Source of the DNA: Peptostreptococcaceae bacterium
Lineage (GTDB): Bacteria; Bacillota_A; Clostridia; Peptostreptococcales; Anaerovoracaceae
Length of the DNA: 6,514 nt
NCBI GenBank assembly: GCA_016650135.1
Contig: JAENWH010000112.1
Coordinates: 1 to 6,514 of the forward strand
Direction: 5' to 3'
In this document: positions 1 to 6,514 of the stretch, in pieces
How positions within the stretch are numbered: the stretch's first letter is position 1
Layout: every line of letters begins with the position of its first letter
The notes under the pieces: generated by a model
Seen by the model: only the letters and a program-made list of their open reading frames with translations
Databases searched by the model: none
Told to the model about the DNA's origin: nothing
Translations under genes and position numbers: made by a program

Positions 1-156
1 GCGTATACAAGAAAAAAATGCAAGAAGGATTTTCATAAAATTTGGCATCAAAAACACTTGAAATATAGGTATTTTCTAGTATTCAAGCATAATGGTGGTA
101 AAACAATTGTCTACGCTAATTTAAATAGGGAATTCAGGTTAAATAAAAAATATTGA
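1..156 (+). CDS. possible 3' end of an unrecognised gene, cut by the window edge
   Basis: Frame 1 is open from the first base to a TGA at 154-156, giving about 51 residues, while the other two forward frames close within 60 bases. The peptide is basic and ends with FLVFKHNGGKTIVYANLNRE followed by FRLNKKY, a mix of hydrophobic and charged residues that could be a real C-terminus. I recognise no family. The stretch is AT-rich, so a chance open frame of this length is quite possible. It ends 43 bases before the DUF362 start, in the same direction. Confidence 0.3.
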   Translation, partial: AYTRKKCKKDFHKIWHQKHLKYRYFLVFKHNGGKTIVYANLNREFRLNKKY

Positions 157-199
157 ATATGCTGCCAGTCGAATGAAAGAAAAATAAAAGGAGACGGTA

Positions 200-961
200 A
201 TGGAAAAGGTATCCGTTGTTAAATGCAGTGCATATGAACTTGAAGAAGTATACAAGGCTGTAAAGGAATCCTTTGAAAGGATAGGTTTTGAATTGCCCGA
301 TAATAAAAAGGTATTGATTAAGCCGAATCTGATGGGACAAAACAGGCCAGAGCAACACACCGTCACTTATTACGCTTTGATAGATGCATTGTGCAGAATG
401 TTATCGGAACATCACTGCAGAATATTGATAGGGGAAGCTTCTGCCTTTTATCAGAAAGGCATGACAGAGAAAGCGTTTAAGACAACAAGGATTTCTGAGG
501 TGGCGGAAAAGTATAACGCTTCCCTGGTTCCCTTCGAAAAAGAGGCTTTGGTTCGAATAGATTCAGGACTAAAGGGACTTAAAGAACTCTATATACCAAA
601 GATGCTTTTAGATGTGGATATGGTAATCAATGCGTGTAAACTGAAAACTCATGCTGCATTGCGTTTGTCGGGAGCTCTCAAAAATATGTTTGGCTGTCTG
701 CCAGGCGGTTATAAGCAGAAGATTCACATGTGGACCAGAAATGAATTTGAATTGTCTGAGGTTTTTCTGGATATCCATCAGAGTGTCAAGCCGGCGGTTT
801 CTATTATGGATGCAGTCTATAGTTTAGACGGAGGACCTTCTGCGATTGGCAAGCCGGTAAAAACTTCAAGGATTTTTGCATCCACCAATGCAGCGGCACT
901 TGATTTAGTAGCCTGCAGAATGATTGGCTACGAGCCACAGGACATTTCTTTATGGTCATAG
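200..961 (+). pseudogene. truncated DUF362 protein
   Basis: The 253-residue product begins VSVVKCSAYELEEVYKAVKE and carries the DUF362 signature KKVLIKPNLMG near residue 40, then VINACKLKTHAALRLSGALK (about 142-161, the Lys-rich central motif), KNMFGCLPG, and a late block GGPSAIGKP followed by ASTNAAALDLVACRMIGYEP. In complete family members this last block is followed by roughly 40 more residues of the domain and often by a 2[4Fe-4S] ferredoxin module. Here the frame stops just after YEPQDIS, where the DNA turns into a different gene. The start is well supported: AAAGGAGA at 187-194 lies 5 bases before the ATG. DUF362 proteins are poorly characterised; many are predicted Fe-S proteins of anaerobes. 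The missing tail makes activity doubtful, although the truncated protein could still be translated. Confidence 0.75.
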
Positions 962-1230
962 ATCCGGAAGCCTTTATGGGCAGAGAAATCTTTGAAAAAA
1001 TTACCGGCGATATTTTAAGACAATTACGGTCATCCAAGGTTGCTCCAGGAGAGAAACGGATTTATACAGCAGGGGAGAAGGAATACTTAGTCTGGCTGGA
1101 TCGAAAGGACAAAGGTGTTCCTCTGGGAGAAGCGGTCAGGAAAGAGCTGATACAAATTCGGAATGAGCTTGGAATGGATTTCGTTTTTCCTTTTGAGACG
1201 GAATGGAGAAAAGCAAATGGGACTATTTAG
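940..1230 (+). pseudogene. C-terminal remnant of an Ldh_2-family malate/L-lactate dehydrogenase
   Basis: Read from 940, the frame gives GHFFMVIDPEAFM, the conserved GHFF-hAIDPxxF segment near the C-terminus of the Ldh_2 family (malate/L-lactate, ureidoglycolate and sulfolactate dehydrogenases; NAD(P)-dependent 2-hydroxyacid oxidoreductases). It continues with FEKITGDILRQLRSS, a PGE motif (TAGEKEY), and the usual tail of KGVPLGEAVRKEL and IRNELGMDF. That is about 95 residues of a family normally near 330-360 long. The N-terminal three quarters, with the catalytic His and cofactor-binding parts, are absent. The ATG at 952 is an internal methionine and has no ribosome site. The fragment lies in a different frame from the DUF362 gene that it overlaps by about 20 bases. 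I read it as a dead fragment left by a deletion or recombination. Confidence 0.75.
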
Positions 1231-1391
1231 CAGTAAATCCAAGAACAGCACCAATGATATCCCGGGAGCCAAATGTCAGTGAGGGGTTGTATCAGGAGCT
1301 GATTTCCTTTGTATCTTCTGCAGGGTTTGATATTTCGAAAATAATCAAGGTAGTGCAAACCTACAGAGAAGGTACAGAATATGAAAATTAA
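1203..1391 (+). pseudogene. probable lipocalin (Blc-like) C-terminal remnant
   Basis: The 62-residue frame reads DYLAVNPRTAPMISREPNV and continues EGLYQELISFVSSAGFD-ISKIIKVVQT. The arrangement matches the end of bacterial lipocalins: a Y-x-x-A-V strand, then (W)ILSRxP, a helix of the form LYxxLxxxAxxxGFD, and a closing L-I-x-V-x-Q. The expected Trp-Ile-Leu before SRxP is replaced by APMI, so the alignment is imperfect. The barrel, about 110 residues, is missing: the frame upstream has stops at 1164-1166 and 1194-1196. No convincing ribosome site precedes the ATG at 1203, which overlaps the dehydrogenase remnant. The frame ends 16 bases before the convergent DUF4230 stop. The lipocalin assignment is inferred from motif spacing only. 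Confidence 0.5.
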
Positions 1392-1407
1392 AAAGCTAAT
1401 CTGGATT

Positions 1408-1995
1408 CTACTTTGAAAAAGTAACGTTGACAGATTCAAAGCCCATTGAATAGAGAAGATTTTCAACATACAGTTTTGTGTTTCCTATTGCTTTTTCTGT
1501 AATCCCACTATCCAGAGCTTGCTTCCCTAAGCTGTCTTTAAAAGTGCTCAGAGCGGTTAAAGTGTCCTCTGTTGTTACCTCGTTGAACAGAGCGTCTTTC
1601 TCGTAATAAAACTTATAGGATAGAATTTCTTTGGACGTGATTTTAGGTTGAGGCAATTTGATAGATATGGATTTATCCTTAATTATGATATCTTTTTCCT
1701 TAATTGCGGACAAATCTATTCCAGATTTAACTTTTGCTTCAACCTTGAACATAAAAGACTTTTCAGTAAAAGGAAGCTTCAATTCTTTAAAGAATTTTGC
1801 ATTATTATAATCTATAATTTCATTGAAATACATTTCAATTGAATTCAATTCACTAATTGTATTGAACTTTTCCATCACTCCTGTGGCAGAAAATTCACTT
1901 TTATCTTTAAAAATCCCCGTGCTTAGCCAGGCTCCGGAAACAATCACCAGAGAAATTACGAGTATTGAAATAATTATACGATATGCTTTTATCAT
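1408..1995 (-). CDS. DUF4230 family membrane-anchored protein
   Basis: This 195-residue protein has one N-terminal hydrophobic segment (about residues 7-26, IIISILVISLVIVSGAWL) behind a short basic start, so it is probably anchored with the rest outside the membrane. The body follows the DUF4230 pattern: a strand ending in LPFTEKSFMFKVEAKVKSG, then IDLSAIKEKDIIIKDKSISI-KLPQPKI, then S-x-x-Y, then a helical C-terminal region with LFNEVTTEDTLTAL, and the closing LLYSMGFESVNVTF. The length is normal for the family, whose function is unknown. AGAAGGAGAAA lies just upstream of the ATG. A minus-strand promoter is plausible at 2137-2165, with the zinc-ribbon remnant in the leader. It is the only gene left of 2183 that looks intact. 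Confidence 0.85.
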   Translation of the reverse strand: MIKAYRIIISILVISLVIVSGAWLSTGIFKDKSEFSATGVMEKFNTISELNSIEMYFNEIIDYNNAKFFKELKLPFTEKSFMFKVEAKVKSGIDLSAIKEKDIIIKDKSISIKLPQPKITSKEILSYKFYYEKDALFNEVTTEDTLTALSTFKDSLGKQALDSGITEKAIGNTKLYVENLLYSMGFESVNVTFSK

Positions 1996-2034
1996 TTTTT
2001 CTCCTTCTCTAAAAAGCCAGTAAGGGTTTTATAC

Positions 2035-2117
2035 CTAAATTTTTACCCCACATTTAAAACAGAAATCTGAACCGGGGCTATGGCCTTAGCGCCACAATTG
2101 GAGCAGGATTTCTCTGC
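2035..2117 (-). pseudogene. frameshifted double zinc-ribbon tail
   Basis: On the minus strand, from 2117, the frame reads AEKSCSNCGAKAIA. After a one-base slip at the CC/GG run near 2071-2076, the next frame reads GSDFCFKCGVKI and a stop at 2035-2037. Joined, this is the classic C-x2-C-G-A-K ... F-C-x2-C-G-x-K double CxxC zinc ribbon found at protein ends. Restoring one base would give a continuous proline codon at the joint. A TAG sits directly before the first codon (2118-2120) and no start codon exists, so the 5' part is gone as well. It lies between a plausible promoter and the DUF4230 gene. The zinc-ribbon pattern is seen directly; that it is a decayed gene is inference. Confidence 0.55.
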
Positions 2118-2136
2118 CTAAATATATATATAATTT

Positions 2137-2165
2137 ATTATACCTAATATCCCTGAAATGTTCAA
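2137..2165 (-). promoter_or_regulatory. probable sigma-A promoter toward DUF4230
   Basis: On the minus strand TTGAAC (2160-2165) and a perfect TATAAT (2137-2142) are separated by 17 bases. Transcription would begin near 2130 and run through the zinc-ribbon remnant into the DUF4230 gene, with a leader of about 135 bases. The surroundings are very AT-rich, so chance matches are possible. Confidence 0.45.
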
Positions 2166-2182
2166 TGAAAGACTTATAAAGT

Positions 2183-2282
2183 GGAGCCACTCAGATAGGG
2201 GCTGGTGGCACTCTTTTTGCGCAAAATGTCGAAATATGCAAAAAGAGTGCCACCAGGCTCTAGCTGAGTGGCTCCTTTTTTT
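2183..2282 (+). terminator. very long hairpin with T-run (terminator-like)
   Basis: Arms 2183-2220 and 2238-2275 are each 38 bases and pair along their whole length except for two mismatches and one G-U pair, around a 17-base loop. Seven T's follow at 2276-2282, the form of an intrinsic terminator for plus-strand transcription. The stem is several times longer than an ordinary terminator. No plus-strand gene lies between 1391 and here, so its natural client is unclear. It stands 10 bases before the promoter at 2293 and would shield it from read-through. No T-run exists on the minus-strand side. It could alternatively be a small hairpin-forming repeat. Confidence 0.7.
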
Positions 2283-2292
2283 GAAATAGTTA

Positions 2293-2321
2293 TTGACAAA
2301 AAACCAAAAATCCGATATAGT
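2293..2321 (+). promoter_or_regulatory. near-consensus sigma-A promoter for the trmB-like gene
   Basis: TTGACA (2293-2298, perfect) and TATAGT (2316-2321, one base off TATAAT) are separated by exactly 17 bases. Transcription should begin near 2328, giving a leader of about 75 bases to the ATG at 2403. I see no clear operator palindrome in the leader. No other strong promoter is visible before lysA. Confidence 0.8.
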
Positions 2322-2402
2322 GTTCCTAAATAGTACAACTAATTTTACAACCACGCGATGATTTAAATATTTTTCGCCCTAATTGACAAGGAGATCAACT
2401 CA

Positions 2403-3104
2403 ATGGAACTGATTCAACTGATGACACAACTTAACCTTACCAGGCAGGAAGCCACCATCTATGTGGCATTACTGACAGAAGGCGAATTAAATGGGTATGA
2501 AGCAGCAAAAGTGACAGGTATTTCCCGCTCAAACACCTATAATTCCCTTTCCGCCCTTGTTGAAAAAGGGGGCGCCTTTGTCATGGAAGGACAACCGGTA
2601 AAATACAGCCCGGTTTCACTGGAGGAGTTCTGCGACAATCAGATTAGAAGGCTTGTGCAAACCAAGACCCAACTTATGAAGCTGGCTCCTGAAAAACGCC
2701 GGGAAGCGGAAGGATATATTACCATAAAGGGTGAGACACATATCCTGAACAAAGCCAGACATATGATTTCAGAGGCAAAAGAGCGAGTTTATTTATCAGT
2801 ATCTGACCAGATACTTGAAACAATAATTCCTGATATTGGGGAGGCGATAGCGCGAGGCATCAAGATGGTTTTGATCACAAATCCACCCTTTTACCTGGAA
2901 GGCGCAACTGTGTATTACGGGAAAAAGAATCATCACCAGATAGGTCTTATTGCTGATTCGGCAAATGTGCTGACGGGAGATATTGAAGAAGGTGAGAATT
3001 CGACCTGTCTGTATTCCAGAAAGAAAAATCTGGTGGATTTATTTAAGGAATCCATGAAAAATGAAATCAGGCTGATAGAAATCGTGAAAGATAGTGAAAG
3101 TTGA
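2403..3104 (+). CDS. TrmB-family transcriptional regulator
   Basis: The 233-residue protein begins with a TrmB-type winged helix-turn-helix: LNLTRQEATIYVALLTEGEL (about 11-30), recognition region GYEAAKVTGISRSNTYNSL (about 32-50), and wing with VKYSPVSLEEF (about 66-76). A short charged helical linker follows. From about residue 104 a phospholipase-D-like sensor domain of the TrmB type reads YITIKGETHILNKARHMI, RVYLSVSD, and IARGIKMVLITNPPF. Members bind DNA and respond to small ligands, often sugars; the ligand here is unknown. AAGGAGA (2388-2394) lies 8 bases before the ATG. The gene is followed after 98 bases by lysA in the same direction, so control of the lysine/diaminopimelate genes is possible but unproven. 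Its last ~24 bases of conserved coding sequence are copied in the downstream gap. Confidence 0.85.
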   Translation: MELIQLMTQLNLTRQEATIYVALLTEGELNGYEAAKVTGISRSNTYNSLSALVEKGGAFVMEGQPVKYSPVSLEEFCDNQIRRLVQTKTQLMKLAPEKRREAEGYITIKGETHILNKARHMISEAKERVYLSVSDQILETIIPDIGEAIARGIKMVLITNPPFYLEGATVYYGKKNHHQIGLIADSANVLTGDIEEGENSTCLYSRKKNLVDLFKESMKNEIRLIEIVKDSES

Positions 3105-3165
3105 TAAAATCAGGCTGCTTGAAATCGTGGGGAAAATTCGAAGTGAATCAGAATTAATAAGCTGA
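3063..3165 (+). repeat. imperfect tandem copy of the trmB-like gene's 3' end
   Basis: Bases 3063-3086, inside the gene and encoding EIRLIEIV, recur at 3106-3129 with three differences, 43 bases downstream. The second copy, read from 3100 in another frame, gives DKIRLLEIVGKIRSESELIS and a stop at 3163-3165, compared with NEIRLIEIVKDSES at the gene's own end. It therefore looks like a second, slightly longer version of the C-terminus. It may be an old partial duplication, or the original end of the gene displaced by a frameshift. Confidence 0.5.
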
Positions 3166-3202
3166 TCTATATCAAAATGAAAATGAAAGGAATCGACAAT
3201 TG

Positions 3203-4444
3203 ATGAAAAAAACTTTTGTAAATGCGGAACAATTAAATAAAATAGTGGAGGAATACCCCACACCGTTTCATCTGTATGACGAAAAGGGAATACGTGAAAA
3301 TGCACAAAAATTAAAAGAAGCTTTTTCCTGGAATAAAGGGTTTAAAGAATATTTCGCAGTAAAAGCGACCCCTAATCCTGCTATTCTGAAAATCCTGAAA
3401 GAGGAAGGCTGCGGTGTTGATTGCTCTTCCTATACGGAGCTTCTGATGTCAGAAATGGTTGGATTTCAGAAGGGTGATATCATGTTTACCTCAAACGTAA
3501 CCCCTGCTGAGGATTTTGTGCTTGCCAAATCCATGAAAGCTGTGATTAATCTGGATGATATTACACATATAGATTTTCTGGAGAAGGTTGCGGGGATACC
3601 AGAAACGATAAGTTGCAGGTATAATCCGGGCGGAGATTTTGTGATAAATAACTTCATTATGGATACACCTGCCCAGTCAAAATATGGTTTCACCAGGGAG
3701 CAGCTAACTGAGGGCTTTAAAATTCTCATTAATAAAGGGGCAAAGAATTTCGGCATACATGCTTTTTTAGCAAGTAATACAGACACAAATGAATATTACC
3801 CTGCGCTGGCAAAAATACTTTTTCAGACGGCCGTAGAGTTGAAAGAAGAAACAGGTGCACATATTACATTTATAAACCTTTCCGGTGGTATTGGCATTCC
3901 TTATCGGCCTGAACAAAAGGCGGCTGATATTCTTTTGATTGGAGAGGGCGTCCGAAAAGTTTATGAAGAAATTCTGATTCCTGCCGGTATGGGAGATGTG
4001 TCCATTTATACCGAGTTGGGGAGATTTATGCTGGGGCCTTATGGCTGTCTGGTGTCCAAGGTGCTTCACGAAAAACATACACACAAGGAATATGTCGGGC
4101 TTGATGCCTGTGCGGCAAACCTGATGCGTCCGGCTATGTACGGATCTTATCATCATATTACGGTAATGGGCAAGGAAAACCAGCCATGTGATCATATTTA
4201 TGATGTAACCGGTGGCCTTTGCGAGAATAATGACAAGTTTGCAGTGGACAGAATGCTCTCGGAAATTGAGATTGGTGACCTGCTGGTTTTGCACGACACG
4301 GGAGCACACGGATTTTCGATGGGGTACAACTACAATGGTAAGTTGCGTTCGGCGGAGATTCTGCTGAAAGAGGACGGCTCAACCAAACTGATCAGGCGTG
4401 CGGAAACCCCAGTTGACTATTTTGCAACCTTAAGCCCATTATAA
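3203..4444 (+). CDS. lysA: diaminopimelate decarboxylase
   Basis: This cytosolic PLP enzyme of the fold-III (alanine racemase-like) class decarboxylates meso-diaminopimelate to L-lysine. The 413-residue product has the PLP lysine in EYFAVKATPNP (K54), CGVDCSSYTEL, FGIHAFLASN (H186), the phosphate-binding loop LSGGIG (about 226-231), ELGRFMLGPYG (E271, R274), and the catalytic-site motif GLCENNDKFAVDR (C340, E341). It also has GDLLVLHDTGAHGFSM and the YN near 377 in YNYNGKLRSAEILL. The HAFLASN and GAHGFSM variants are typical of clostridial forms. I chose ATG 3203; TTG 3200 is directly in front, and AAGGAA (3187-3192) would serve either. The last residues, LSPL and stop, are encoded by the 31-bp repeat of element A, so the native tail after DYFAT appears replaced. 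Confidence 0.93.
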   Translation: MKKTFVNAEQLNKIVEEYPTPFHLYDEKGIRENAQKLKEAFSWNKGFKEYFAVKATPNPAILKILKEEGCGVDCSSYTELLMSEMVGFQKGDIMFTSNVTPAEDFVLAKSMKAVINLDDITHIDFLEKVAGIPETISCRYNPGGDFVINNFIMDTPAQSKYGFTREQLTEGFKILINKGAKNFGIHAFLASNTDTNEYYPALAKILFQTAVELKEETGAHITFINLSGGIGIPYRPEQKAADILLIGEGVRKVYEEILIPAGMGDVSIYTELGRFMLGPYGCLVSKVLHEKHTHKEYVGLDACAANLMRPAMYGSYHHITVMGKENQPCDHIYDVTGGLCENNDKFAVDRMLSEIEIGDLLVLHDTGAHGFSMGYNYNGKLRSAEILLKEDGSTKLIRRAETPVDYFATLSPL

Positions 4445-4462
4445 GCATCCGACATTGGGCTT
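4432..4462 (+). repeat. 31-bp repeat R1 (left end of element A)
   Basis: It starts AAGCCCATTATAAGC and ends ACATTGGGCTT. The outer 7 bases on each side are complementary, so a single-strand hairpin with a 17-base loop is possible. A GTG and five T's follow (4463-4470), so R1 may double as the lysA transcription terminator. It supplies the final SPL codons and TAA stop of lysA. Confidence 0.85.
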
Positions 4463-4505
4463 GTGTTTTTAAAAAAGGTTGAAATTCCAACGAATTGAAA
4501 AAGTG

Positions 4506-4530
4506 TTATCCACAGGTTGCTTGTGGATAA
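4506..4530. promoter_or_regulatory. convergent DnaA-box pair 1 of element A
   Basis: TTATCCACA (4506-4514) faces TGTGGATAA (4522-4530), its exact reverse complement, across 7 bases. Both match the bacterial DnaA-box consensus TTATNCACA perfectly. DnaA binding is inferred from sequence alone. Confidence 0.6.
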
Positions 4531-4589
4531 GATTTGGGGAAAAGTTAAAAAGATCTAAAAAAATGTAAAAATAATCTGACTGCAGGATT

Positions 4590-4614
4590 TTGTCCACAGG
4601 AGAGCTGTGGATTA
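4590..4614. promoter_or_regulatory. convergent DnaA-box pair 2 of element A
   Basis: TTGTCCACA (4590-4598) faces TGTGGATTA (4606-4614) across 7 bases. Each differs from the TTATNCACA consensus at one position. Orientation and spacing are identical to pair 1, which argues that the paired arrangement itself is under selection or inherited. Confidence 0.5.
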
Positions 4615-4656
4615 TATAAAATTAGAGTGAGCATTTGCAAGGCTTCGCAAAAAAGG

Positions 4657-4687
4657 AAGCCCAATGTCGGATGCTTATAATGGGTTT
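4657..4687 (-). repeat. 31-bp repeat R2 (right end of element A)
   Basis: This is the reverse complement of R1 with one difference (TTT instead of CTT at the outer end). It contains TATAAT (4676-4681) pointing toward dapL, but no matching -35 at 16-18 bases, so I do not call a promoter. An ATG at 4664 lies inside it. Read on the minus strand it is followed by CC and a run of six T's, so it could also end leftward transcription. Confidence 0.85.
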
Positions 4688-4694
4688 GGAGGAA
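4688..4694 (+). promoter_or_regulatory. dapL ribosome binding site, abutting element A
   Basis: GGAGGAA begins at the first base after R2 and lies just before the ATG at 4697. It favours 4697 as the start, which matches the family N-terminus [17 protein letters not shown] competing site, AAGGA at 4653-4657, lies 6 bases before the in-frame ATG at 4664 inside the repeat and would add 11 residues. Confidence 0.75.
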
Positions 4695-4696
4695 TT

Positions 4697-5953
4697 ATGA
4701 CAATTATTAACGAGAATTATTTGAAATTACCAGGTAACTATCTTTTTTCTGAAATAGGGAGAAGGGTCAGTTTGTTCACGGAGGAAAATCCTGATGCCAA
4801 AATTATCAGACTGGGAATTGGTGATGTTACACTGCCACTGGCGTCGGCGATCATTGAAGCCATGCATAAAGCGGTAGATGAGATGGCTTCTGAAAAAACA
4901 TTCAGAGGTTATGGGCCTGAACAAGGGTATGGTTTTTTGATTGAGAAGATTATCAAGTTTGATTATGAAGCACGTGGAATAAATTTTTCGGTTGACGAAG
5001 TTTTCGTGAGCGATGGCTCCAAGATAGATACTGGAAATATACAGGAAATATTTGGTCTTGAGAATAGAATTGCAGTGACGGATCCTGTCTACCCAGTGTA
5101 TGTAGATACAAACGTAATGGCAGGTAGAACCGGGATTCTGGGAACAGATGGCAAATGGAGCGATATAACATATCTGCCTTGTACAGCTGAAAATGGATTT
5201 ATCCCGGCATTGCCTGAGGGTAAGGTTCAACTGATCTATCTTTGTTTTCCTAACAATCCGACAGGGACAACTATTTCGAAAACCGAGCTGAAGAAATGGG
5301 TGGATTATGCAAAGGCCAATAATGCAATCATTTTATTTGATTCAGCCTATGAAGCTTATATTCAGGATGAGGATGTGCCACACAGCATTTATGAAATTGA
5401 AGGAGCCAGGGAAGTTGCTATTGAGTTCAGAAGTTTTTCAAAAACTGCAGGATTCACAGGGACTAGATGCGCTTATACTGTAATACCAAAGGAAGTGATT
5501 GGTTATACCGCGGCAGGGGATTCTGTGGAGGTTAATAAGCTTTGGAACCGCAGGCAGACCACCAAGTTTAACGGTGTTCCATATATTATACAAAGAGCTG
5601 CCGAAGCGGTTTACTCGGATGCTGGTCAGAGCCAGATCAAAGAACAAATCAACTATTATATGAAAAATGCCAAGGCTATCAATGATTGCCTTGAGAGACT
5701 TGGCTATCAGGTTTTCGGCGGAATTAACGCGCCATATATCTGGTTAAAGACGCCGGACGGAATGGATTCGTGGAGTTTTTTTGATAAATTGCTCAGTGAG
5801 TATCATATCGTCGGGACACCAGGTGTTGGTTTTGGACCAAATGGCGAGGGCTACTTCAGACTGACAGCTTTTGCAAGTAAGGACAGCACAGATGAAGCAA
5901 TTAAAAGGCTTCAAGCCCATTATAAGCATCCGATATTGGGCTTACAATTTTGA
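4697..5953 (+). CDS. dapL: LL-diaminopimelate aminotransferase
   Basis: This 418-residue fold-I PLP aminotransferase converts tetrahydrodipicolinate and glutamate directly to LL-diaminopimelate and 2-oxoglutarate, bypassing the acylated intermediates of the DapD/DapC/DapE route. Seen: [20 protein letters not shown] at the N-terminus, [54 protein letters not shown] (N186/N187), FDSAYEAY (D215, Y218; PLP ring contacts), [15 protein letters not shown] with Schiff-base K249, and GYFRLTAF with carboxylate-binding R388. SKIDTGNIQ and the [10 protein letters not shown] context are diagnostic for DapL rather than general aspartate aminotransferases. The last codons, from about [10 protein letters not shown], lie inside the repeat of element B and form an unusual tail ending LQF. 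It follows lysA in the same direction, separated only by element A. Confidence 0.95.
5913..5943 (+). repeat. 31-bp repeat R3 (left end of element B)
   Basis: It is identical to R1 except for one base (ATATT in place of ACATT). Here it is translated in a different frame from R1, contributing the [10 protein letters not shown] segment to the DapL C-terminus before the stop at 5951-5953. With R1 it forms a direct repeat around dapL. Confidence 0.85.
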
Positions 5954-5985
5954 GAACCCTTGCAATCAGTCATTTGGAATTTCAT

Positions 5986-6010
5986 TTATTCACATGTAAC
6001 CTGTGGATAA
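5986..6010. promoter_or_regulatory. convergent DnaA-box pair of element B
   Basis: TTATTCACA (5986-5994) faces TGTGGATAA (6002-6010) across 7 bases. Both match TTATNCACA perfectly. The spacing equals that of both pairs in element A. Confidence 0.6.
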
Positions 6011-6097
6011 ATGAAGAATAAGAGGTCACTAGTTGGTTACGGAAAATTAATTGACAGCAATCAAGGGAAGAATTAGAATATGACATAATAAGAAAAG

Positions 6098-6106
6098 TTA
6101 TCCACA
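6098..6106 (+). promoter_or_regulatory. single DnaA box of element B
   Basis: TTATCCACA is a perfect consensus box. The position where a convergent partner would lie after a 7-base spacer (6114-6122) does not match, so this pair seems decayed. A poor same-strand match, AAACCCACA, lies at 6121-6129. Confidence 0.5.
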
Positions 6107-6153
6107 GGTCGAATTATGAAAAACCCACAAATCGCAGGCGTTAATTTTTTCAC

Positions 6154-6184
6154 AAACCCAATGTCGGATGCTTATAATGGGCTT
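6154..6184 (-). repeat. 31-bp repeat R4 (right end of element B)
   Basis: It is the reverse complement of R1 with one difference (AAACCC at its inner end). On the minus strand it encodes the SPL codons and TAA stop of the histidine kinase, the same ending that R1 gives lysA. Confidence 0.85.
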
Positions 6185-6514
6185 GACAGGGGAACCTTAA
6201 TTATAAAGGTGCTCCCTGCGTTTTTTTTGGAGGTGACAGATATTGTGCCATTTAGCCGCTCAATATTCTCTTTTGCGATATAGAGACCGATGCCTTCGCC
6301 TTTTGTTGCTGCGGCAGCGCTTCGGTAATAGGCAGTAAAAATTTTTTCCAAATCTTCTTCTTTAATTCCAATCCCTGTATCCTGGATTTTAAGAATAAGA
6401 TTCCCTTCGTTCACGATGTAGCTTATCCTAACGTTACCACCGGGGTTGGTGTATTTATAAGCATTAGTCAAGATGTTGTAAATCGCCTGACTCAGCTTGT
6501 ATTTGTCTGTCTCC
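6172..6514 (-). CDS. sensor histidine kinase, C-terminal ATPase part (5' end outside window)
   Basis: The 113 visible residues are the catalytic HATPase_c domain of a two-component sensor kinase. They include the N box (QAIYNILTNAYKYTNPGG), the G1 box DTGIGIKEEDLEKIF, the F-box region FTAYYRS, the G2 box GEGIGLYIAKE, and the closing strand GSTFIIKVPL. The domain binds ATP and phosphorylates the dimerisation-domain histidine, which lies outside the window. The frame is open to the right edge, so the ORF start at 6471 (a TTG) is only internal. The product normally would stop soon after KVPL; here SSPL and TAA follow, the SPL codons and stop coming from element B. The response regulator partner is not in view. 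Confidence 0.9.
   Translation of the reverse strand, partial: ETDKYKLSQAIYNILTNAYKYTNPGGNVRISYIVNEGNLILKIQDTGIGIKEEDLEKIFTAYYRSAAAATKGEGIGLYIAKENIERLNGTISVTSKKNAGSTFIIKVPLSSPL

Follow-up and report, generated by a model that had tools for sequence, protein, structure and literature searches.

A 6,514-nt stretch (positions 1 to 6,514) of contig JAENWH010000112.1 of a Peptostreptococcaceae bacterium (assembly GCA_016650135.1), analyzed over its whole length and called the window here, carries two elements bounded by inverted copies of a 31-bp palindromic repeat, one on either side of the gene dapL. These elements belong to a dispersed repeat family that lies at gene ends, often supplies the stop codon of the gene it adjoins, and contains DnaA boxes. 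The reading toward which we lean, as somewhat probable, is a gene-end family resembling repetitive extragenic palindromic (REP) sequences, found in one clostridial lineage and carrying DnaA boxes that would be under selection.

A dispersed repeat family at gene ends

The consensus of the repeat in the window is AAGCCCATTATAAGCATCCGACATTGGGCTT. Each of the four copies lies 0 or 1 mismatch away from it, so that any two differ at no more than two positions, and they form two inverted pairs, element 1 and element 2, at the coordinates that the earlier note on this DNA had given. That note had also expected a multi-copy, dispersed repeat, and the related metagenome-assembled genome (MAG) Peptostreptococcaceae bacterium 5_8_m_bin4 (G001) bears this out, since it holds 40 copies at no more than 3 mismatches (0 for the reversed control) and the repeat is thus not confined to the window locus. 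These copies group into ~33 sites by hand count. G001, a fragmented MAG with unordered contigs, is the sole genome of its genus among those compared, and no 31-mer copies were found in the other 196 genomes of the family sample (197 with G001) or in the other 392 of the order sample (393). When an 18-mer from the repeat was searched for in GTDB species genomes, 19 stretches came back; 18 belong to G001, and the last, which differs from the full repeat at seven positions, is probably due to chance. A covariance model of the A unit (see below) was run against 197 genomes with 19 candidates scored per genome, so that weak relatives may be missed. It matched 19 times in G001 and once, marginally, in each of two other genomes, for which the E values of 0.004 and 0.009 per genome are at about chance level across 197 genomes. 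A plasmid search with one G001 element gave no match, and a phage search found only the 27-bp box palindrome in one Streptomyces phage (two accessions). A viral origin was rejected: 15 IMG/VR stretches share a 17-mer, and none has the 31-mer within 7 mismatches.

The arms of the palindromic 31-mer are 7 bp long, and in all 25 aligned ends six of the seven pairs form. Longer perfect arms occur in some copies (14 bp in L168 and 12 bp in L005 and L059, where L numbers name the sequence concerned), and L062 has a diverged 31-mer that is perfectly palindromic with other arm letters. Copies are arranged as inverted pairs around about 60 to 260 bp, as one-ended units, as 63-bp abutting inverted doublets (L018, L057, L059, L069, and L071), and as solo repeats (L063/L170, L067, and L168). 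A-type ends consist of the repeat, a T-run, CCCTTGCAATCAGTCATTT, and then AGTTATCCACAGG-NNN-CCTGTGGATAACT; B-type ends differ in their subterminal stretch and carry a single box, and all nine positions of that box are constant across alignment A2, which comprises 8 B ends (the ninth, L062, was excluded). Alignment A1 comprises 25 A-like ends, with L006, L015, and L169 excluded, the first two being without a full box pair. Close to four of the five doublets, the same word, its two copies in swapped order, forms a hairpin (an outward pair) in which one box is imperfect in L069 and L071; no outward hairpin was seen in the stretch examined at L057. Since the 31-mer is palindromic and also occurs solo and in abutting inverted pairs, it is closer to REP repeats than to transposon ends and is more than the pair of element ends that the initial view made of it.

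Tandem expansions of repeat parts lie at element edges in L016 (3928-4140, TTCGGATGCTTA units) and L018 (4089-4180, AAGCCCATTAT units), which suggests slippage. A loosely similar middle hairpin, GAGCAT...TGTG...CACA...ATGCTC, is present in L002, L005, L011, L013, L014, and L062 and is a possible further module.

We considered 49 repeat edges from 31 sources. At 26 of them an open frame of at least 90 codons stops inside the repeat, either at repeat position 13, adding -Ser-Pro-Leu (16 edges), or at position 2 (T/AA, 10 edges); the window dapL is one further edge, at which the frame reads through the repeat. None of these 27 edges uses the third frame, a post hoc observation in which lysA is counted in both genomes, leaving 26 independent edges. 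At five other edges a natural stop precedes the repeat by 3 to 26 nt, at two (5′ of dapL, one per genome) a stop lies 39 nt away, and at 15 no open frame of at least 90 codons ends there. At L002, L005, L011, and L014, both genes of a convergent pair stop in the two repeats of one element. We compared 28 flanking proteins with NCBIfam, 25 of which end in or read through a repeat (out of 27 such edges). Five of the 25 are without a usable full-length family (L019, both L014 proteins, L011 left, and L069). Of the 20 assessable proteins, some of them matched to families below the cut-off, 17 have matches that stop no more than 4 positions short of the family profile's end; the exceptions are ArgH (7 positions), a YtvI-like transporter below the cut-off (12), and an MnmL-like protein (13). 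These results indicate that the repeat starts near the natural protein end and that the genes are not truncated.

Two elements around dapL and their conservation

Features of the two elements and of the genes they adjoin are as follows, with strand where assigned.

3200..4444, + strand: lysA (diaminopimelate decarboxylase), final codons Ser-Pro-Leu-stop supplied by the repeat
4432..4462, + strand: element 1 left 31-bp palindromic repeat, holding the lysA stop TAA (4442-4444)
4479..4490, + strand: element 1 subterminal motif TTGAAATTCCAA, a variant of the TTGCAAT motif at other ends
4506..4530: element 1 inverted DnaA-box pair TTATCCACA-7-TGTGGATAA, both exact, same in the ortholog
4590..4614: element 1 second pair of boxes, each with one mismatch (TTGTCCACA and TAATCCACA), same in the ortholog
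4657..4687, - strand: element 1 right 31-bp repeat, with GGAGG (4688-4692), the presumed dapL ribosome-binding site, directly after it, then ATG (4697)
4697..5953, + strand: dapL (LL-diaminopimelate aminotransferase), frame crossing the element 2 left repeat
5913..5943, + strand: element 2 left 31-bp repeat, A-type end
5957..5975, + strand: element 2 A-type subterminal motif CCCTTGCAATCAGTCATTT
5986..6010: element 2 inverted DnaA-box pair TTATTCACA-7-TGTGGATAA, stem extending outward (arms 5981-5997 and 5999-6015)
6098..6106, + strand: single DnaA box at the B-type end of element 2
6121..6144, - strand: element 2 B-type subterminal motif
6154..6184, - strand: element 2 right 31-bp repeat, holding the stop of the opposing gene (6172-6174)
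6172..6513, - strand: histidine-kinase-like gene, 3′ part, continuing past the window edge, stop inside the repeat

The elements of the window thus overlap three gene ends and also touch the dapL ribosome-binding site. Neither the stop-codon overlap nor the hairpin-forming nature of the paired boxes figures in the earlier note. Five exact matches to the DnaA-box word TTATNCACA lie inside them (at 4506, 4522, 5986, 6002, and 6098), compared with 0.33 expected in the whole window (standard deviation, 0.60), and none of 200 shuffles had five. Three one-mismatch boxes (4590, 4606, and 6146) lie within or at the elements; of the seven boxes first reported, the five perfect ones therefore stand, and the total becomes eight. 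The enclosed DNA had been called non-coding, which is right insofar as no open reading frame of at least 60 amino acids lies inside the element interiors and needs amending at element 2, whose left repeat is crossed by the dapL frame (stop at 5951-5953). A terminator scan marks the element 1 box pair at 4506..4530 as terminator-like on the - strand.

Contig L008 of G001 holds the orthologous lysA-dapL locus, with elements at both places. Between the window and L008, four-fold degenerate sites differ at 54 of 156 positions in lysA, 59 of 150 in dapL, and 35 of 91 in the trmB-like gene (148 of 397 in sum). In element 1, the repeats show 0 changes in 62 positions and the four boxes 0 in 36, compared with 24 of 116 in the rest of the aligned interior, which also has 42 gap columns. 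Fisher tests of the boxes give p values of 1.6e-7 against the four-fold sites and 0.0012 against the other interior. The imperfect boxes of element 1 were kept exactly while loop and spacer changed; since they were kept as such, simple homogenization by gene conversion is unlikely for the boxes. Conservation strengthens the putative link to DnaA.

Elsewhere in the window, positions 2178-2280 form a long hairpin upstream of the TrmB-like gene (43-nt arms, 88% complementary, CCACTCAG...CTGGTGGC), which is present in the ortholog L008 with a changed stem and was not seen in the other loci compared. A 26-bp direct repeat (88%, spacing of 43 bp) lies at the TrmB-like gene end (3061-3129). At 200-1391, a DUF362 frame stops at 961, and overlapping frames at 952 and 1203 lead to 1391, an arrangement possibly due to a frameshift or gene decay. 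Because the window has no Rfam match at the gathering score, a known RNA such as a riboswitch between lysA and dapL was rejected as unsupported.

DnaA boxes and hairpins

Of 57 half-sites compared (49 A-type and 8 B-type, after removal of the gapped L070 left half-site of the A type), 40 have TTATCCACA as their 9-mer and 45 have TTATNCACA. Position 5 is the most variable (6 of 57, with three other bases), positions 1, 4, and 6 to 9 have at most 2 changes, and the flanks are freer; the B half-sites, having been found by exact word, are constant by construction in this count, and the eight-end alignment serves as the independent one. Within the box part of the A hairpin, the pair at position 5 (N) is also the one most often broken (5 of 24 sequences, the next being broken in 4 of 24), and the same 9-mer occurs in three layouts: as an inward pair, as a single box, and as an outward pair beside doublets. 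Together, the variability and mispairing at position 5 and the three layouts fit recognition of the word itself. Support for the hairpin rests on a structure that we named rather than on RNAalifold, which found only 8 pairs in alignment A1 and no two-sided changes; the named A structure beats shuffles in score and in percent paired, while its number of pairs with two-sided changes was reached by 258 of 500 shuffles.

Exact TTATNCACA occurs 124 times in G001, compared with 74 for the reversed control, and its density of ~62 per Mb is the highest of the 60 family genomes counted. Elements account for 45 of these among the 100 boxes listed and for 5 more on four further element-bearing contigs, i.e., 50 of 124, so that with spans set by hand, ~5.2 kb of the 2.0-Mb assembly (about 0.26%) holds about 40% of the exact boxes. 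Between rnpA- and dnaA-like genes (by Pfam) in L166 of G001 (700-1000), a putative oriC, we found an inverted TTATCCACA-AGT-TGTGGATAA together with TGTGGATAACTTTTTTT; the word is therefore present where the host origin is expected. Two outward-facing TTATCCACAGG boxes ~75 bp apart lie upstream of an alanyl-tRNA-synthetase-related frame in L165 (1467-1550), with no 31-mer copy among those listed.

Several observations weigh against the view that the family carries selected DnaA boxes at gene ends. Pairing extends past the boxes, with two-sided changes, at the three nearest positions outside them (in 13, 15, and 19 of 24 sequences); L070 has kept its hairpin and lost one box; in L009 both boxes are changed and still paired; and the diverged 31-mer of L062 has remained palindromic. 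Structure alone thus accounts for part of the signal, and pressures on the word and on the stem may act together. The ninth B end, in L062, reads TTATTCACA, changed at the N position. Most box pairs of A units are inverted and 7 bp apart, and E. coli DnaA is described in the available part of PMC11317965 as favoring pairs 2 to 3 bp apart, modeled in tandem. Genomes free of the family come near the box density of G001 (about 58 per Mb in G040 and 56 in both G020 and G008), and the excess of G008 over its own reversed control is larger than that of G001. The estimate of selection comes from one locus in one pair of genomes, and gene conversion possibly keeps the 31-mers alike. Element 2 is far more changed than element 1 between the window and L008: the kinase side has a B-type end in the window but an A-type one in L008, and the dapL-side repeat of L008 is degraded, all of which indicates that the site was remodeled. 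Finally, a terminator scan of 4300-6300 gave 3 sites, all on the - strand, versus 1.6 expected, and a scan of L016 gave none.

Origin, rival readings, and known repeat families

A DapL match at E ≤ 1e-60 was present in 14 of the 119 family genomes searched, G001 among them. In G035, which has the closest DapL (75% identical), an element-free stretch of 25 bp lies between lysA and dapL, and in G078 the two genes are adjacent without an element; the best 31-mer match at either locus has 13 mismatches. The check for empty sites proposed at the outset therefore returned element-free junctions, in which divergence hides the exact target. These junctions support a gain of the element in the window lineage, for which loss would be the remaining alternative. 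As the definition of a miniature inverted-repeat transposable element (MITE) requires, terminal inverted repeats surround a non-coding core. The label fails on target duplication: a flanking duplication of at least 3 bp was found in none of 13 two-ended copies and one of 2 bp in 1 of 13, a set that includes the orthologous element 1 twice and three doublets. Only the pair around dapL, among the 40 copies, is inverted at the spacing of a transposase element (0.8 to 3 kb). No parent transposase was found in this fragmented MAG, in a search that covered the Y1 family and did not include DDE families; G001 has two Y1_Tnp matches, neither near a copy on its contigs, the best repeat match nearby having 14 mismatches.

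A classical MITE, i.e., a non-autonomous DNA transposon with 31-mer ends, moved by an undiscovered DDE transposase and with DnaA boxes aiding or timing transposition, would account for the inverted ends around a non-coding core, the dispersed copies, the element-free junctions, and the differing end type on the kinase side of element 2. Given the lack of target-site duplications and of a second parent-sized pair, the existence of one-ended, doublet, and solo forms, and the conservation of repeat and boxes in the orthologous copy, we consider it very unlikely, and the classical mobility implied by the MITE reading of the earlier note is unsupported. The repeats and interior palindromes could instead be intrinsic-terminator or mRNA 3′-end hairpins only, with the DnaA-box match a by-product of a common stem, and hairpins preceded by an A-run and followed by a T-run (L004, L016, L070, and L169), the pairing beyond the box, the compensated palindrome of L062, and the placement at gene ends all speak for this. 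It would leave unexplained why single B-end boxes are invariant in the 8 aligned ends, why the outward layout has the same 9-mer, why the N-position pair is the most often mispaired within the box, and why the imperfect boxes of element 1 stayed exact beside a changing loop and spacer, when the stem of the 2178-2280 hairpin did change between both genomes; we regard it as rather unlikely.

Distinctly unlikely, in our estimation, is a domesticated array for DnaA titration or control, the main role of which would be to keep DnaA from oriC, with gene ends merely tolerating the repeats. The share of exact boxes held in so little of the assembly, the top rank in box density, and the conservation of the boxes would fit such an array, and titration in E. 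coli is argued for in the accessible portion of PMC12371093, but the density lead over other genomes is small.

Under the REP-like reading that we favor, a unit would have spread in the past to gene 3′ ends by transposition-like copying, and its palindrome would have become the gene's own end, a TAA stop codon plus hairpin, often then followed by a T-run. With DnaA boxes in its interior as inverted pairs or singles, the unit would now be kept by selection on both repeats and boxes. Its most likely work would be at the transcript end, as a translation stop plus hairpin or terminator, and if DnaA is bound at the boxes, the family would amount to scattered chromosomal DnaA sites. A further step, which we hold to be rather unlikely, is that the repeat was domesticated as a dispersed DnaA-binding array, with ~40% of the exact boxes in ~33 units whose boxes are under selection and initiator supply coupled to transcript ends throughout the chromosome.

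Among known systems, REP, REPIN, and BIME sequences of the GTAG and CGTC super-families are alike in being short palindromes, occurring as singletons and inverted doublets, and adjoining gene 3′ ends, and the 31-mer with its 40 copies falls within the description of a REP as a 20- to 40-bp imperfect palindrome with many extragenic copies. REPs no more than 15 nt from stop codons are reported to stall ribosomes (PMC12306157, available in part). Unlike them, the family described here lacks the GTAG or CGTC tag (when both strands were checked up to 8 nt from each edge, a tag word, CTAC, turned up once among 49 copies), uses TAA as its stop, and has a clostridial host; its units are long composites with DnaA boxes, and no REP-associated tyrosine transposase (RAYT) was found near a copy in the fragmented MAG. 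Neisseria Correia elements and pneumococcal BOX and RUP are small MITE families, short, dispersed, and non-coding with inverted ends. The likeness extends to Coxiella QMITE2, a copy of which extends the C terminus of EnhC, according to the part of PMC5896051 available. In contrast to small MITE families, no target duplication or parent was found here, the palindromic ends also occur solo, and DnaA boxes are present. DnaA-box clusters outside oriC include datA, DARS, and those of B. subtilis. These likewise group consensus boxes away from the origin; they are unique loci, unlike the dispersed gene-end repeats here, in which inverted pairs are mostly 7 bp apart. DNA-uptake sequences of Neisseria and Haemophilus are single short words whose inverted pairs are able to form terminators. 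One word in inverted pairs is used here too, but the word is a DnaA box, has far fewer copies, and is tied to a longer repeat. We found no literature on DnaA boxes and miniature inverted-repeat elements together, and the sources pairing extragenic palindromic sequences with DnaA boxes concern, in the parts available, plasmids or HuH nucleases. As far as the literature searched shows, a TAA form that carries DnaA boxes, as in this lineage, is new.

Whatever the role of DnaA, a REP-like family that routinely forms the stop codon and transcript end of genes in a clostridial lineage extends the pattern described for GTAG REPs, and gene-end repeats of this kind show how a densely coded genome can take up a repeat at little cost. 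Should DnaA bind the boxes, this would be a repeat family that spreads initiator-binding sites through the chromosome, and the titration idea would become open to comparison of related species with and without the repeats.

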